This document shows, one piece after another, positions 8,448-21,817 of a DNA stretch of 35,833 bases. The notes under the pieces were generated by a model that was not told the DNA's origin, did not search any database, and saw only the letters and a program-made list of their open reading frames with translations. How positions within the stretch are numbered: position 1 is the stretch's first letter; each line of letters begins with the position of its first letter. Location: the NCBI GenBank assembly GCA_012842575.1, contig DUSP01000124.1, positions 1-35,833 on the forward strand, read 5' to 3'. The translations under genes were made by a program, and so were the position numbers. The stretch comes from Clostridia bacterium (lineage in GTDB: Bacteria; Bacillota; Sulfobacillia; DUSP01).

Positions 8448-9104
8448 ATGGAACTATTAACCATCAGCAAAGCGGCAAAAAAGTTGGGCGTTCACCCGAA
8501 CAGTCTGCGCAATTGGGAGAAGCGGGGTTTAATCAAACCCGTCCGTCTACCCGGAGGCCAGCGCCGGTACTCTATGAACGAACTCAACAGGCTCCTGCAG
8601 TCTGGTCAGTTGACTGACGGGCAGGAAGCAGTCGTGCTTTACGCCCGGGTATCTACTAAGAAGCAGGCCGATGCAGGCAACCTGGACCGGCAGATGGACC
8701 GGCTGCGCCAATATGCCCAGGATCACAACTTTACCATCAAAGCGGAATTCATGGATGTGGCCAGCGGCTTGAACCAAAAACGCCGGGGGTTAACAAATGT
8801 CCTCAAGCTGGCCGAACAGGGCGAGTACAAAAAACTGTTCATCGAATATCCCGACCGGTTGGCCCGCTTCGGTTATGCGTACATTGAACGGCACCTGAAA
8901 TACTGCGGCGTGGAAATAATCGCCATCGCGGAAAAAGAACCGGCAGACGCCCAATCGGAACTGGTGCGGGATCTGCTGTCCATCGTCACATCCTTTTCAG
9001 CCCGGCTGTATGGGGCCAGAGGCGCCAAAAAAGTCAGGCAGGGGTTTCGGGAACTGATCGCAGGAGTGGAGCCGGATGAAAAAGCCGAAGAAGAAACCGA
9101 TTAA
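8448..9104 (+). CDS. tnpA: IS607-family serine recombinase/transposase TnpA
   Basis: N-terminal MerR-like HTH (LTISKAAKKLGVHPNSLRNWEKRGLIKPVRLPGGQRRYS) and serine resolvase motif LYARVSTKKQADAGNLDRQMDRLRQYA. Confidence 0.95.
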   Translation: MELLTISKAAKKLGVHPNSLRNWEKRGLIKPVRLPGGQRRYSMNELNRLLQSGQLTDGQEAVVLYARVSTKKQADAGNLDRQMDRLRQYAQDHNFTIKAEFMDVASGLNQKRRGLTNVLKLAEQGEYKKLFIEYPDRLARFGYAYIERHLKYCGVEIIAIAEKEPADAQSELVRDLLSIVTSFSARLYGARGAKKVRQGFRELIAGVEPDEKAEEETD

Positions 9105-14508: not shown

Positions 14509-14829
14509 GTGAGACTCGAGCGTTACGAGTACGTAGCCGACATCCTGAAAACCCTCGGACACCCCATAAGGCTATGTATCGTCGCGGGGCTTCTGGAAAA
14601 CCCCGGATGCAACGTGAGCGACATGCAACATTGCCTCGACATACCACAGTCAACGATTTCTCAACACCTGGCCATTCTCAGGTCTAAAGGTATCCTTCAA
14701 GGTACCAGATCCGGTGTCAACGTACGGTATAAAGTCGTAAACGAGGATGTCGTTCGCCTCGTCAAAACCCTTTTCCCACACGAGAGACTATCCATCCTCA
14801 AGAAACGTGCAGCGACAGGCAATAATTGA
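14509..14829 (+). CDS. ArsR-family winged-helix transcriptional regulator
   Basis: ILKTLGHPIRLCIVAGLLENPGCNVSDMQHCLDIPQSTISQHLAILRSKGILQGTRSGVNVRYKV. Confidence 0.93.
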   Translation: MRLERYEYVADILKTLGHPIRLCIVAGLLENPGCNVSDMQHCLDIPQSTISQHLAILRSKGILQGTRSGVNVRYKVVNEDVVRLVKTLFPHERLSILKKRAATGNN

Positions 14830-14861
14830 CCAGGAGAACAATTGACTAGGAGGCGGTCCCC

Positions 14862-16673
14862 TTGGACGCAAAACCGGTGTTCGCGCGTCCCGAAGATGGC
14901 GTAAGGCGGCTGGTGGTGATAGGAGGTGTCGCGGCCGGGACAAAGGCGGCGGCGAAGGCGAAACGGGAAAACCCCGACCTTGAAGTGACGGTCCTCGAAA
15001 AAGGGGAGCACATTTCATACGCGGGGTGCGGCCTCCCATATTTCGTCGGCGGCATCATCAAAGAGGGAAAAGATCTCCTCGTACGGTCTCCACAGGACTT
15101 TAACAAGGACTATGGCATTGTAGTTCTGACCCACCACGAGGCGTATAAGATACTCACCGAAGAAAAGGTCGTCCTGGCTAGAGATACGGAAAGCGGCCAA
15201 GAAAAGGCGTTCAGCTACGACCGGTTGATAATAGCGACGGGCGCCAAGCCCGTGGTCCCGCCCATCCCCGGAATCGATCTCAAGAACGTGTTCACCTTAA
15301 GGAAACCCGTTGATGCTTTAAAGATGCGCAGTGCGCTGGAGAAAGCCGAGGCCGAGCAAAGGAAACTCAAGGCGCTTGTCGTCGGAGGTGGGCTCATAGG
15401 CCTTGAGGTCGCCGAAAACATGGCGCTCCGAGGAGCAAGCGTCACGGTGGTGGAGATGCTCGATCAAATCCTCCCCGGCTTTGACCTAGAAATCGCCAAA
15501 ATCGTGGAAAACCACATGCGCGACAAGGGTGTCAACGTTTTGACCGACGAGAAAGTGAACTCCTTCGAAGGCGACCGCGAGGGTTTCGTCATAAAGGCGT
15601 ACACCACCAAGAGAACCCTCGACGTGGATTTGGTTTTATGGGCCACGGGAGTGAAGCCCGACGTCACCCTGGCGAAGGAGGCCGGAATCGCGTTAGGCCC
15701 AACGGGTGCCATCGAAGTAGACGAAAACTTCGAGACGAACGTAAAGGGCATATACGCCGTCGGAGATTGTGCCCAGACGAGGAACCTCCTCACCGGAAAT
15801 CCGGCTTTCTATCCCCTCGGTTCCACCGCTAACAAGATGGGTCGTGTGGCGGGGACTCGCGCCGCACGTCAATCTTTTCTGGGCACGGCGAAAGAGAGAT
15901 CTCCCCTTTATGTCTTGGGTACGGGCGTAGCCAAGATCTTTGACATGGCGGTCGCCAGGACCGGCTTGTCAGAGCAGGATGCCCGCAAGAATAGCTTTGA
16001 TGCCGAGACCGTCCTCGTACCCGCTCATGACCGCGCTCACTACTACCCGGGTCATAAATTCATCATTACCAAATTGGTGGTCGATAAGCCCACTCAAAGG
16101 CTGCTCGGAGCCCAGATCGTCGGTGAAGGCGTGGTCGATAAACCCATTGACGTAATCGCAACCGCTTTGACCTTCGGAGGAACCGTCGGGGATTTGGCCG
16201 CCATAGACCTCGCATACGCTCCGCCCTTCTCCATGGCCCTCTCCTCCACCATCGTGGCGGCTAACGTGATGCTCAACAAGCTCTCCGGCCGGATGACCGG
16301 GATATCGCCGGTTGACCTCAAGAGGCGCCTCGACGAGGAGAAAGGAAAGCCCGGCGGTTCGGCTAGTAGACCTTTCATGGTGGACGTCAGAACCGAGGCG
16401 GAGTTCCTGACCGGCACCGTGCCCGGAGCGGTGAACATACCCCTTTCGGATATCAGACGGCTAAAGGATGTCGTGCGTGGGGCCGCATCCGAACTCGATC
16501 TTCCCGATGAGGCCAGAAAGCTTCTGAGACTTCCTCGCGAAACGGAATTAATACTCATATGCAGGATCGGCCAGCGGGCTTACCTGGCGGCGCTCGAACT
16601 CAAGCGATTGGGCTTTTTAAACTGTAAGGTCCTCGACGGAGGGGTCATGTCATACTCCTTCGGGTTGGAATAA
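14862..16673 (+). CDS. CoA-disulfide reductase / FAD-dependent NAD(P)H oxidoreductase with C-terminal rhodanese domain
   Basis: VIGGVAAGTKAAAKAKRENPDLEVTVLEKGEHISYAGCGLPYFVGG (FAD plus active Cys), VGDCAQ; rhodanese VDVRTEAEFLTGTVPGAVNIPL...LICRIGQRAYLAALELKRLGF. Confidence 0.95.
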   Translation: MDAKPVFARPEDGVRRLVVIGGVAAGTKAAAKAKRENPDLEVTVLEKGEHISYAGCGLPYFVGGIIKEGKDLLVRSPQDFNKDYGIVVLTHHEAYKILTEEKVVLARDTESGQEKAFSYDRLIIATGAKPVVPPIPGIDLKNVFTLRKPVDALKMRSALEKAEAEQRKLKALVVGGGLIGLEVAENMALRGASVTVVEMLDQILPGFDLEIAKIVENHMRDKGVNVLTDEKVNSFEGDREGFVIKAYTTKRTLDVDLVLWATGVKPDVTLAKEAGIALGPTGAIEVDENFETNVKGIYAVGDCAQTRNLLTGNPAFYPLGSTANKMGRVAGTRAARQSFLGTAKERSPLYVLGTGVAKIFDMAVARTGLSEQDARKNSFDAETVLVPAHDRAHYYPGHKFIITKLVVDKPTQRLLGAQIVGEGVVDKPIDVIATALTFGGTVGDLAAIDLAYAPPFSMALSSTIVAANVMLNKLSGRMTGISPVDLKRRLDEEKGKPGGSASRPFMVDVRTEAEFLTGTVPGAVNIPLSDIRRLKDVVRGAASELDLPDEARKLLRLPRETELILICRIGQRAYLAALELKRLGFLNCKVLDGGVMSYSFGLE

Positions 16674-16701
16674 CTGGTTGGAACAACTGGTCGGAATAAC
16701 T
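16663..16701 (+). repeat. Three tandem copies of a 13-bp unit spanning the CoADR stop codon
   Basis: ggttggaataact / ggttggaacaact / ggtcggaataact. Confidence 0.9.
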
Positions 16702-16718
16702 GATGGGAGGGTAAAGCG

Positions 16719-16943
16719 ATGTCCGTGATCAAGGTGGGTGCAAGGTGTCTTCAATGCCCCGGGCCTATCGTGGAACTACATAAGGCGTCGGCGAAAGCTT
16801 CTCCCGGCGACGTCATTGAGATCGAGGCGACAGACCCGGGCTTCAAAAAAGACGTGGTGGCCTGGTGTAAGAAAACGAAAAATGAGCTCCTGAAACTAGA
16901 TGATTTCGGAGATCACATAGTGGCCGTAATAAGGAAGTGCTGA
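16719..16943 (+). CDS. TusA-family sulfurtransferase carrier
   Basis: VGARCLQCPGPIVELHKA (CPxP motif) and typical length of 74 aa. Confidence 0.93.
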   Translation: MSVIKVGARCLQCPGPIVELHKASAKASPGDVIEIEATDPGFKKDVVAWCKKTKNELLKLDDFGDHIVAVIRKC

Positions 16944-16956
16944 AGGGGTGAGGTAT

Positions 16957-17553
16957 GTGTCCGAAAATAAGGCACTTGAGAGCGCGGGGACTCAGAATGA
17001 AAAGGCAAAGGACGAATCCGTTCCAGCCGTCGGAACGGCAGAAGGTACAGAGGCCGTAGAAGCCATAGAAGGCTCCTCGCCGAAAAAGAAGACCCTCATC
17101 GTATTCGCTGACGACCTAGACAAGGCCATTGCCGCCTTCACCATCGCTACGGGAGCAGCGGCCATGGGAGACGACGTCACCATGTTCTTCACGTTTTGGG
17201 GCCTAAATATCCTCCGCCGTCAAAAAGCCGTTCCTTTAAAAAAAGGCGCTATAGAGCGTATGTTCGGCGCACTGATGCCGAGAGGCGCCGGGCGCTTGCG
17301 CCTTTCGAAGATGAACTTTTTCGGGATCGGTGCTAAAATGATGAACGGGCTCATGAAGAAAAAGGGCGTCAAGACGTTGCCAGAGTTGATGGACCTTGCC
17401 CGTGAATTGGGCGTGAAGATGGTCGCCTGTACCATGTCCATGGACGTCATGGGTATCGCAAAGGAAGAGCTCATCGACGGCGTGGAACTTGCCGGAGTCG
17501 CGAGTTACCTGTCGGAAGCCGATGAAGCAAACGTAAACCTGTTCATCGCTTGA
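16957..17553 (+). CDS. DsrE-like (DsrE/DsrF/DrsH superfamily, DsrE2-type) protein
   Basis: KTLIVFADDLDKAIAAFTIATGAAAMGDDVTMFFTFWGLNILR...KMVACTMSMDVMGI; ORF track starts at 16948, GTG at 16957 is plausible. Confidence 0.88.
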   Translation: MSENKALESAGTQNEKAKDESVPAVGTAEGTEAVEAIEGSSPKKKTLIVFADDLDKAIAAFTIATGAAAMGDDVTMFFTFWGLNILRRQKAVPLKKGAIERMFGALMPRGAGRLRLSKMNFFGIGAKMMNGLMKKKGVKTLPELMDLARELGVKMVACTMSMDVMGIAKEELIDGVELAGVASYLSEADEANVNLFIA

Positions 17554-18782: not shown

Positions 18783-20282
18783 ATGTCGAAAAACACTCAC
18801 ATGTCCCTTATACGAAAACCATCCATTCTCTATAGGTTGATACTCATAGCATTCGCAGCCGGCATATCATTGGCTGCGGCGGTGCAACCCTTATCGGCCG
18901 GGTCAGTGTCACCAGCGAGCCCGTATTCCCGCGTACCGATCCACGAAATCCCTTCGAACCGCGTGAGATTGATGTTACCTCCCCTTAAAATCTCGCCGCC
19001 CATCGCAGCGCAATCGGCTGTCCTCATAGAGGCTAAAACGGGCACCGTCCTATATTCACAAAACGCCGACGAGAGGCGCCCCATGGCCAGTACCACCAAG
19101 ATAATGACGGCACTGGTTGTTCTCGATCGGATTCGAGGCCACCACCTTGAGGATACCGTAGTCGTATCGGATCGGGCATCCAGAATCGACGGCAGCAGGG
19201 TATACTTAGACCCGGGCGAACGGCAGACTGTCAAAGACCTTCTTTACGCCCTTCTCTTGGAGTCCGCTAACGACGCCGCCATAGCTCTGGCGGAACACGT
19301 TTGTGGCTCGGTGGAGAAATTCGCCGACCTCATGAACGAGTACGCCCTACGCCTGGGGGCCAGACATACCAGATTTGAAAACCCTCATGGCCTTCCGTCC
19401 CAAGACCACTATACTACCGCTTTCGACTTGGCCCTGATCTCGGCAAAGGCCATGGAAAACCCGATTTTCAGGGAAATCGTTAAGACCGAATCCCATCGCA
19501 TACCCTGGCCCGCAAAGGCTTCATATAAGGAACTATATAATCATAACAAACTCCTATTCTTGCGCCGTGACATCACCGGCATAAAGACGGGGTTTACCAG
19601 CCAGGCGGGTCACTGCCTGGTGATCTCGGCCCAAAAGGACGGTCGTGAGGTGATTGCCGTCCTCTTAGACGCCGAACAGCCCCGCATGTGGGATGAGGTC
19701 CAAAGGCTCATCGATGCGGGATTGTCCGGTTACCGTGCGGTGGCGGGCCCCGATACGGGTGATATGGTCGGCATGAAGAAGTTCCCGGACGGAACCGTAG
19801 TCATGGCGCGGGTGGCACAAGGAAGTCACATTCTAATACCCGCCGACGCCGATCCCGCATCGGTTACAAAGCATATCGTGTGGAAAAGAAAAGATTCCGC
19901 GGAACACGGCGAGCGCGTCGCAACGCTCGTGTACGCACTCGGCAGCCAGACGGTGGCCGAGTTCGATCTCCTGGCCGACGTCTCAACATATCCCGAACTT
20001 GCCACTGATCGCCTTGCAAGGGATTCCTTGAAGCGCCTTTTCGTATGGGCGTTTCCCATGGCTTTGGTTTTCGCTTTGGTGCGTATGAGATCAAACGGGA
20101 GGGCTCTAAAGGGCGCCATGCGTCCCAGGCGACGGCGTAGCTTGCGGAATCGCCGGACCCGATATATCGAAATCGATAGCGTTCCTCCTATTTCGGGCGC
20201 CACTTCAAAGAGGCGTAGAGCATTTCTTCGTCCGGCTCGCCGGCCGAGAAAACGGCACCCGTCCTCCGATTGTAGATGGTAA
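18783..20282 (+). CDS. dacF: D-alanyl-D-alanine carboxypeptidase (DacF/PBP5-like, S11)
   Basis: RRPMASTTKIMTALV (SxxK), ESANDAAIALAEH (SxN), KTGFTSQAGHC (KTG); TM plus basic C-terminal tail. Confidence 0.93.
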   Translation: MSKNTHMSLIRKPSILYRLILIAFAAGISLAAAVQPLSAGSVSPASPYSRVPIHEIPSNRVRLMLPPLKISPPIAAQSAVLIEAKTGTVLYSQNADERRPMASTTKIMTALVVLDRIRGHHLEDTVVVSDRASRIDGSRVYLDPGERQTVKDLLYALLLESANDAAIALAEHVCGSVEKFADLMNEYALRLGARHTRFENPHGLPSQDHYTTAFDLALISAKAMENPIFREIVKTESHRIPWPAKASYKELYNHNKLLFLRRDITGIKTGFTSQAGHCLVISAQKDGREVIAVLLDAEQPRMWDEVQRLIDAGLSGYRAVAGPDTGDMVGMKKFPDGTVVMARVAQGSHILIPADADPASVTKHIVWKRKDSAEHGERVATLVYALGSQTVAEFDLLADVSTYPELATDRLARDSLKRLFVWAFPMALVFALVRMRSNGRALKGAMRPRRRRSLRNRRTRYIEIDSVPPISGATSKRRRAFLRPARRPRKRHPSSDCRW

Positions 20283-21201
20283 CCCTCGCGACACTGTGCA
20301 CGAAGGTATCCATCTTGAATATGTCACGACCGGCGCGCTCGAAGAGTTCCGCAAAACCGATATGATAGTCCGGACAGGTTTGCGGCGATAATGGCATTAG
20401 AGGTGTAATCCTTCTCAGTTCGTCGTCGTCGCCGTCCACCACGAATCCCGCACAGCCACCGTAATATACGAAGGTATTCACTCTCACCATTGCGGTGAGC
20501 TCGTCGTCGCAGTACGGGGCTACCGGAGCCTCTCCCCAAGCGGCGATGACCCTGTTTAGGTCAAATCCGAGCTCATGCAGTCTCCAAATACTCGTCTCGA
20601 GGGTTCGGGAAGAAACGTTGGCCGAACCCACCACGCTGCCAGTACGCGCAGCAAGGAGGTATACGTGTTCGGGGGAGACCTGGCACCCGTCGGCGACCAC
20701 TGCCGCGATATTTTCATCAGGGATCCTATCCATCTGAAGGAGTAAAACCACATCCTCACAACGGTCAGCGTAATCGAATTCGGTTATGAATTTGTCCCTC
20801 CTCGCTACCGCCCTTGCAGGTCCGGAGCCTAAAGGCGCAATTCCGTCGGGTCCTTCGGCCCCTTTTAGAACCCAACCGGAGATCTGCGAGCAAAGACACG
20901 ATATCAAGGGATGGTCGGTGAATACGTGAAGGACCGGAATGTCCAGGTCTTTGATCTTTCTTATACTGAGGGAAGATCTCCCCAAACCTCCGAGACTGAT
21001 GTCGACAAATCTTAGGGCGGCCTCCCAGCCCCCTGCAGCTTCTATGCCCATGTCGATGACCGTCGCGCCGTTTGAAGTCTTAAGGACACGGACGTTGAGG
21101 TCGTCGGCGCGTCCGATTACCTCTCTCACTATTCTCATGGCATTCCTGTTAACGCTGATCACGAGATAGCACCCCTGCCTTCTCTCGGTTTTTTCGCCCA
21201 A
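20188..21201 (-). CDS. mch: Methenyl-tetrahydromethanopterin cyclohydrolase-like protein (Mch family)
   Basis: VISVNRNAMRIVREVIGRADDLNVRVLKTSNGATVIDMGIEAAGGWEAALRFVDISLGGLG; FTDHPLISCLCSQISGW; LGSGPARAVARR; GSANVSSRTLETSIWRLHELGFDLNRVIAAWGEAPVAP; TIYNRRTGAVFSAG. Probable GTG start at 21162 with upstream aggggtg. Confidence 0.85.
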   Translation of the reverse strand: MGEKTERRQGCYLVISVNRNAMRIVREVIGRADDLNVRVLKTSNGATVIDMGIEAAGGWEAALRFVDISLGGLGRSSLSIRKIKDLDIPVLHVFTDHPLISCLCSQISGWVLKGAEGPDGIAPLGSGPARAVARRDKFITEFDYADRCEDVVLLLQMDRIPDENIAAVVADGCQVSPEHVYLLAARTGSVVGSANVSSRTLETSIWRLHELGFDLNRVIAAWGEAPVAPYCDDELTAMVRVNTFVYYGGCAGFVVDGDDDELRRITPLMPLSPQTCPDYHIGFAELFERAGRDIFKMDTFVHSVARVTIYNRRTGAVFSAGEPDEEMLYASLKWRPK

Positions 21202-21238
21202 CTATTTCCTCCGGCGTTCTCCACTTAATTGTTTCCCC

Positions 21239-21817
21239 TCAAAGTGTTTTTTTCCTTGTCGTATATATCTTGTATATCTTGCTATATAAAAACAATGCTA
21301 AGAGTCCGGGTAGGCCCCGGAAGGAATCTCGCGGAGTCAGGGAAAGGTCTAATACGCCGGGATGAGGCGCTCGGCCAAACGCTGGGACGAGGTTCGACAA
21401 TCTCAGAATGAGACTGAGAGGTGGTATACAGTGAATCGCGGGAGTGACTTGGCGCAAGGCGCAGGCGCGGTTTTCGCGAGAAGGAATATACGAACGGTCT
21501 AACTCCATCTCGGGTGATACCACCACCGTATCCGCTGCCGCGCGGCTGATGGCTATCTTAGCATTTCCGACCGCCAGTAAAATCGGTCCGCCCAAAGGAT
21601 AACGGGCTAGGATCTTTGCCGTGGCTCCCGGGTGGAGCCCGAGGTCTATTAGACGATTGGTCCACGGTGCGCTCCGATGATGAACGACGACTACCGTTTG
21701 TCCCTTCTTTATTCGGGATACCGTGGCAAGTCTTTGCGCTTCCTTTTCCATGGCGGCGACCCTCGAAACTGACTTTCCGAACGGGACTAATTCCCGAAAT
21801 CGATCTGTTTTCCCCAA
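21239..21817 (-). CDS. FeoA-domain protein with unexplained C-terminal extension
   Basis: TVSRIKKGQTVVVVHHRSAPWTNRLIDLGLHPGATAKILARYPLGGPILLAVGNAKIAISRAAADTVVV; remaining ~90 aa atypical. Confidence 0.7.
   Translation of the reverse strand: MGKTDRFRELVPFGKSVSRVAAMEKEAQRLATVSRIKKGQTVVVVHHRSAPWTNRLIDLGLHPGATAKILARYPLGGPILLAVGNAKIAISRAAADTVVVSPEMELDRSYIPSRENRACALRQVTPAIHCIPPLSLILRLSNLVPAFGRAPHPGVLDLSLTPRDSFRGLPGLLALFLYSKIYKIYTTRKKTL

Follow-up and report, generated by a model that had tools for sequence, protein, structure and literature searches.

The mch-like gene at positions 20188 to 21201 of the window (the whole stretch of 35,833 nucleotides that was analyzed) encodes a member of a separate bacterial subfamily of homologs of methenyl-tetrahydromethanopterin (H4MPT) cyclohydrolase (Mch). 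We lean toward the view that this subfamily left H4MPT/folate one-carbon metabolism and works in the catabolism of imported pteridines. In our best reading, a Mch-like hydrolase was recruited to break down pteridines that would probably be deaminated (lumazine-type). The features of the gene and its locus are as follows.

18783–20282, plus strand: dacF-type D-Ala-D-Ala carboxypeptidase ORF (PF00768, Peptidase_S11, 6.2e-66)
20188–21201, minus strand: mch-like gene from clade W in the Q-type Mch-like subfamily; TTG start, 337 aa
20296–20298, minus strand: codon of the second signature residue, His302, aligned with Phe280 of the A. fulgidus enzyme
20596–20607, minus strand: codons Arg199 to Glu202, kept catalytic pair (A. 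fulgidus Arg183/Glu186)
20734–20736, minus strand: codon of the first signature residue, Gln156, aligned with Glu140 of the A. fulgidus and M. kandleri enzymes
21208–21212, minus strand: GGAGG, read from the sequence as a probable ribosome-binding site for the mch-like gene
21239–21817, minus strand: FeoA-domain ORF directly upstream of the mch-like gene, 38 bases away (PF04023, 6.7e-14)

The GGAGG motif lies 6 bases from the TTG start, and the GC3 of the gene (0.627) is like that of the neighboring genes. The dacF ORF is convergent with the mch-like gene, and its 3′ end overlaps the latter by 95 bases. In the upstream ORF, the FeoA domain spans residues 32–101; the remainder, with its lower GC3, may be an untranslated or miscalled tail. 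As an earlier interpretation of the letters alone (the sequence-only reading) had stated, the neighbors are a FeoA-domain gene and dacF, and no fae, ftr, fwd or cofactor-biosynthesis genes were found among the ORFs of the window. Importer, aminohydrolase and other seed neighbors were not found within 10 kb of the gene, and the window gave no hits in Rfam and tRNA scans.

The HMM search proposed in that reading placed the protein above the cut-offs of both profiles. Pfam MCH (PF02289) covered profile positions 1–310 of 311 (6.3e-95; 318 bits vs. a cut-off of 25), and TIGR03120 gave 272 bits against an equivalog cut-off of 228.8. The sequence match to Methanopyrus 1qlm (8.9e-70, ∼41% identity) and an AlphaFold2 model (mean pLDDT 91; TM 0.94 to 1qlm by target length) agree with the profiles on the Mch family assignment, and all the Mch peptides that had been quoted are present in the translation. 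Judged by its alignments and its model, the window protein is full-length and has the Mch fold. Arg199 and Glu202 (A. fulgidus Arg183/Glu186) are invariant in all 55 aligned sequences; we take this Arg/Glu pair to be the catalytic pair of A. fulgidus Mch and to activate water. Fold, length and the catalytic pair are common to the window protein and Mch 1qlm, 4gvq and 4fio.

A phylogeny with archaeal and bacterial Mch, likewise proposed, placed the window protein in a separate clade: 35 paralogs formed one side of a branch (100/100), with 11 canonical and 9 haloarchaeal Mch on the other, in a tree that omits one very divergent row (L052_p1732). The window protein belongs to clade W together with G025_C5 and L039 (100/99), adjoining clade A. 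At the first signature column (window Gln156; numbered 140 in the A. fulgidus and in the M. kandleri protein, the two with solved structures), Gln was present in 35/35 subfamily members vs. Glu in 20/20 canonical and haloarchaeal sequences. The second column (window His302) held 32 His and 3 Asp in the subfamily vs. Phe in 20/20 of the other sequences. One Lachnospiraceae MAG carries a very divergent second Mch-like protein (L052, 1736–2734) with signature EN, the catalytic pair kept and a very long branch. A shorter, degenerate MCH-family protein (250–270 aa) adjoins the QD-type Mch-like gene in G170, G292, G420 and G106, at the following positions.

L168, 10465–11223: degenerate MCH-family protein
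L166, 10397–11203: degenerate MCH-family protein
L169, 8558–9337: degenerate MCH-family protein
L183, 8722–9537: degenerate MCH-family protein

The catalytic pair reads RP or LA in the two degenerate copies aligned, and their sequences suggest that these proteins may be non-catalytic partner subunits.

The gene had been described as an orphan, a description that fails here, since the genome has four paralogs and the subfamily is present in Bacillota, Chloroflexota and Actinomycetota. MCH matches were detected in 26 of the 399 Bacillota genomes of an even sample; some of these genomes gave more than one match, among them G170 and G191, each a single contig. A scan of named genomes revealed relatives in Clostridia and Bacillota MAGs, Pseudoflavonifractor isolates, Oscillibacter, Lachnospiraceae, Anaerolineae and Acidimicrobiia, and a plasmid search yielded only Mch of about 30–34% identity (Azospirillum, Paraburkholderia, rhizobia and a haloarchaeon). 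Four genomes (G025, G044, G045 and G056) have mch paralogs, and ftr, beta-RFAP synthase and fae were not found in them. The subfamily is apparently undescribed: in the portions of the open literature covered by our search, there was no account of it or of anaerobic pterin catabolism.

Every claim of absence is limited by genome incompleteness; the window genome is a MAG (2.47 Mb, 220 contigs, 93% complete). It has four mch copies, namely the window copy and those on contigs C8, C15 and C93, which are 41–45% identical to it; all four belong to the separate subfamily and none is canonical. On C15, mch is the last gene of a run that starts with aminohydrolase-E2-E3-lipB-lipA, and a Bmp lipoprotein gene follows on the opposite strand. 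The C93 locus contains a cupin-type regulator, an aminohydrolase, an ECF transporter and an aldehyde:ferredoxin-oxidoreductase-like gene, and the C8 copy lies after an aldehyde:ferredoxin-oxidoreductase-like gene and before CoA-transferase and thiolase-like genes (neighbor names at the three loci are partly read from sequence). The C15 and C93 paralogs sit in importer/aminohydrolase-type loci; the C8 and window copies count as exceptions. A glycine-cleavage operon, guessed for the L-type neighbors from gene sizes, was discarded when the sequences were read as E2, E3, lipB and lipA of a 2-oxoacid dehydrogenase.

The scan of the genome for one-carbon genes, also suggested earlier, detected fwdDB and fwdA-ftr, and neither fae nor beta-RFAP synthase was found. 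Profile matches identified FwdB on contig C126 and Ftr on C128, with FwdD and FwdA recognized beside them by sequence. The Fwd set is split over two contig ends (L134, L035), with fwdD-fwdB on C126 and fwdA-ftr on C128; after ftr on C128 neither fwdC nor mch was found. Fae was not found in the seven genomes tested, the window genome included, and beta-RFAP synthase was found in G001 and G030 but not in the window genome (a 93% complete MAG). A simple H4MPT pathway in the window genome was rejected for lack of a detectable fae and beta-RFAP synthase. FolD is present in 7/7 genomes tested, including the window genome, so the folate cyclohydrolase is not missing, and replacement of FolD by the mch-like gene was rejected.

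Canonical fwd-ftr-mch-mptN clusters are present in several Bacillota genomes (L021, L022, L167 and L176–L182; some of these stretches also carry beta-RFAP synthase), and thus an H4MPT route exists in this phylum. G001 and G030, from the same order or class, have a fwdB-fwdA-ftr-fwdC-mch-mptN cluster on a contig that also carries beta-RFAP synthase; neither of these two canonical-cluster genomes gave a fae match. The canonical Bacillota Mch (G001, G030 and others) come from the same phylum, class and order as the window gene, but they fall in the other clade, carry the EF signature and are 32–34% identical to the window protein.

We scored all Mch rows for their signature and for seed neighbors within 10 kb. 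Two or more importer/catabolic neighbors accompanied 44 of the 49 Q-type rows (40/45 without duplicate contigs, four rows being repeats of contigs fetched twice: L028/L055 and three genes of L044/L175), and fwd, ftr, mptN or beta-RFAP synthase were found near none (0/49 rows, 10 kb). The window copy and C8 are among the five exceptions. For EF-type rows outside haloarchaea, canonical neighbors were observed in 13, one or none in five, and an opposite-strand Bmp transporter in G213; the 51 haloarchaeal rows had none or one seed neighbor. The Fisher value for neighborhood vs. signature (5e-11) is descriptive only, because rows share ancestry and include repeats. Neighbor families named by profile were the Bmp binding protein, ABC ATPase, permease, FMN_red, luciferase-like, polysaccharide-deacetylase-like, aminohydrolase, PDH-like E1 alpha, SDR and sarcosine-oxidase-like flavoproteins, and the pterin-related FolB, Pterin_bind and RibD_C; E2, E3, lipA and xanthine-dehydrogenase-like neighbors were named from sequence. 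Many neighbor names come from blastp to seeds or from inspection of the translations, and gene calls are simple ORF choices. In G118 (L173, 6744–9922), the Mch-like gene and the aminohydrolase are apparently in pieces, as if the operon were decaying.

FolB is encoded inside the Q-type Mch operons of G170, G292, G420 and G106, as a second copy beside a folate-type FolB. Passages of two papers describe Glu74 of FolB as a substrate-binding residue (PMC11328599, PMC2713229). FolBs of 17 genomes were compared: those linked to Q-type Mch had Gln at Glu74 and kept Glu22 and Lys100, and Tyr54 was kept save in a two-domain type; the other, folate-type FolBs of the same genomes had Glu at 74. Compared with FolB 1dhn and 5f3m, the single-domain operon form retains Glu22, Tyr54 and Lys100 but has Gln in place of Glu74. 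Among the best 30 FolB-matching genomes of the 399 sampled, 10 had Q74, all 10 with MCH matches; the remaining 20 had E74 and include G428 as well as G196, a genome with a canonical Mch. Q74 sequences had served to build the query profile, which favors Q74 among the top matches. Every Q74-FolB seen was in a genome with a Q-type Mch. This includes the window genome, whose sole FolB found (C63: 1836–2204) has Q74 and lies away from any Mch gene. G244 has a Q-type Mch but only an E74 FolB, and FolB was not found in G056. The FolB of G428, a genome in which no Mch was found, has Glu but groups with the single-domain Q74 rows (93/98) in the FolB tree, in which the two-domain rows stand apart. Two-domain FolB-like proteins of ∼240 aa adjoin the aminohydrolase in G269 and G191; they have Gln in place of Glu74 and another residue in place of Tyr54.

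L250, 6951–7670: two-domain FolB-like protein
L253, 7143–7883: two-domain FolB-like protein

A single G269 contig holds an xdh-like set, FMN_red, RibD_C, the aminohydrolase, a two-domain FolB and a Q74 FolB.

Since the subfamily genes usually lie beside uptake and dismantling genes, they probably have a role in breaking down environmental pterin-type compounds. We infer the pteridine substrate, the order of the steps, the side-chain step and the ring hydrolysis of the following pathway. An ABC (Bmp-type) or ECF importer would take up the pterin, and a COG0402 aminohydrolase would convert its 2-amino ring to a 2-oxo (lumazine-type) ring. Removal of the side chain would fall to the Q74-type FolB aldolase in some operons, and in others to an SDR and a TPP/lipoate 2-oxoacid-dehydrogenase-like complex. 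The Mch-like protein, with its kept Arg/Glu pair, would hydrolyze the pteridine at a cyclic C=N or N-CH=N. The presence of a deaminase-like enzyme and the Glu-to-Gln change in both FolB and the Mch-like protein suggest that the two proteins may bind a 2-oxo ring such as lumazine. Urate oxidase, which has the FolB fold, holds its 2-oxo substrate with Gln and provides a precedent. The E1/E2/E3 and aldehyde-oxidoreductase genes fit other substrates too. The role of the window copy is taken over from its clade W relatives, because its own locus lacks the operon: the L039 locus has FMN_red, ABC, E1 and E2, and that of G025_C5/L027 has an aminohydrolase end and ABC. The fuller proposal, for and against which we see the case as evenly balanced, is that Bacillota, Chloroflexota and Actinomycetota, cultured Pseudoflavonifractor included, have an undescribed anaerobic route of pteridine catabolism that recruited Mch, FolB and other pterin-binding proteins, with the Glu-to-Gln change accepting the deaminated (2-oxo) ring and the Mch-like protein acting as the ring-hydrolyzing step.

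The operons might instead degrade another N-heterocycle (a purine, a xanthine- or urate-like compound, a deazapurine or a flavin) whose ring is opened by the Mch-like protein, which we consider unlikely. Atrazine chlorohydrolase was the nearest match of one operon aminohydrolase, whose best PDB matches also included 8-oxoguanine deaminase; an atrazine-binding protein was among the matches of the importer binding protein, and xanthine-dehydrogenase-like and permease genes (names from sequence) are present in some Q-type loci. The available passages of a paper on the reductive urate pathway (XdhD, YgfK/UacX, SsnA and HyuA) describe a similar aminohydrolase-centered catabolic cluster in the same phyla (Bacillota, Chloroflexota and Actinomycetota) and a luciferase-family protein in Chloroflexota, and name neither Mch nor FolB (PMC12507026). 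The FolB, Pterin_bind and RibD_C neighbors, however, point to pteridines. Four subfamily-linked aminohydrolases reached no NCBIfam cut-off, that of 8-oxoguanine deaminase included, and with SsnA (TIGR03314) they scored 167–222 bits vs. 455.5, so that an SsnA/urate cluster was rejected. It is extremely improbable that the gene is an archaeal contaminant or an assembly artifact of a MAG in 220 contigs: it is located mid-contig, flanked by spore-former genes with matching GC3, several copies are present in single-contig genomes, and named isolates, e.g., Pseudoflavonifractor, carry the subfamily.

An ordinary H4MPT-type Mch serving the Fwd/Ftr of the genome would account for the FwdB and Ftr profile matches on other contigs and for the kept catalytic pair, and none of the four mch copies being canonical, the cyclohydrolase for Fwd/Ftr would otherwise be missing. 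This is nevertheless improbable. The window protein differs from all 20 canonical and haloarchaeal sequences in having Gln for Glu140 and His for Phe280, and forms part of the separate clade (100/100). Although Fwd/Ftr are present, beta-RFAP synthase and fae were not found in the genome; Q-type rows never adjoin fwd/ftr/mptN, their neighbors being of catabolic type, and the same subfamily is present in genomes in which ftr was not found. The H4MPT-linked formaldehyde oxidation of methylotrophs also differs, as its Fae was not matched in the seven genomes. Activity on methenyl-tetrahydrofolate is quite improbable as well. The haloarchaeal Mch (HVO_2573) is assumed to be of folate type in organisms without a methanopterin pathway, a situation like that of the window gene (PMC8305020). 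Haloarchaeal Mch, however, retain Glu140 and Phe280 and make up a clade of their own, neither of which fits the window protein, and FolD was present in every genome tested. The sequence-only reading had offered two alternatives: acquisition of an H4MPT route, which fails to explain this gene, and repurposing for another pterin or substrate, which is supported by the distinct clade, its own signature, the catabolic-type neighborhoods and the genomes in which ftr, beta-RFAP synthase and fae were not found.

Annotation by the equivalog name of TIGR03120 (methenyl-H4MPT cyclohydrolase) would mistakenly credit spore-formers and gut bacteria with H4MPT metabolism. Should the pteridine reading be true, these operons would offer a genetic handle on the anaerobic dismantling of biopterin, neopterin and related pterins (no gene set for anaerobic biopterin/neopterin breakdown is described in the parts of the open literature searched), and the same Glu-to-Gln change would be found in two unrelated folds linked in one operon.

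Elsewhere in the window, a MerR-like serine-recombinase ORF (8448–9104) is followed by a 566-aa ORF, and the segment 8448–10776 looks, from its translations, like an IS607-type element. Positions 14509–17553 contain a row of ArsR-type regulator, CoA-disulfide-reductase-like, TusA-like and DsrE-like genes, with DsrE named by profile and the others by eye.
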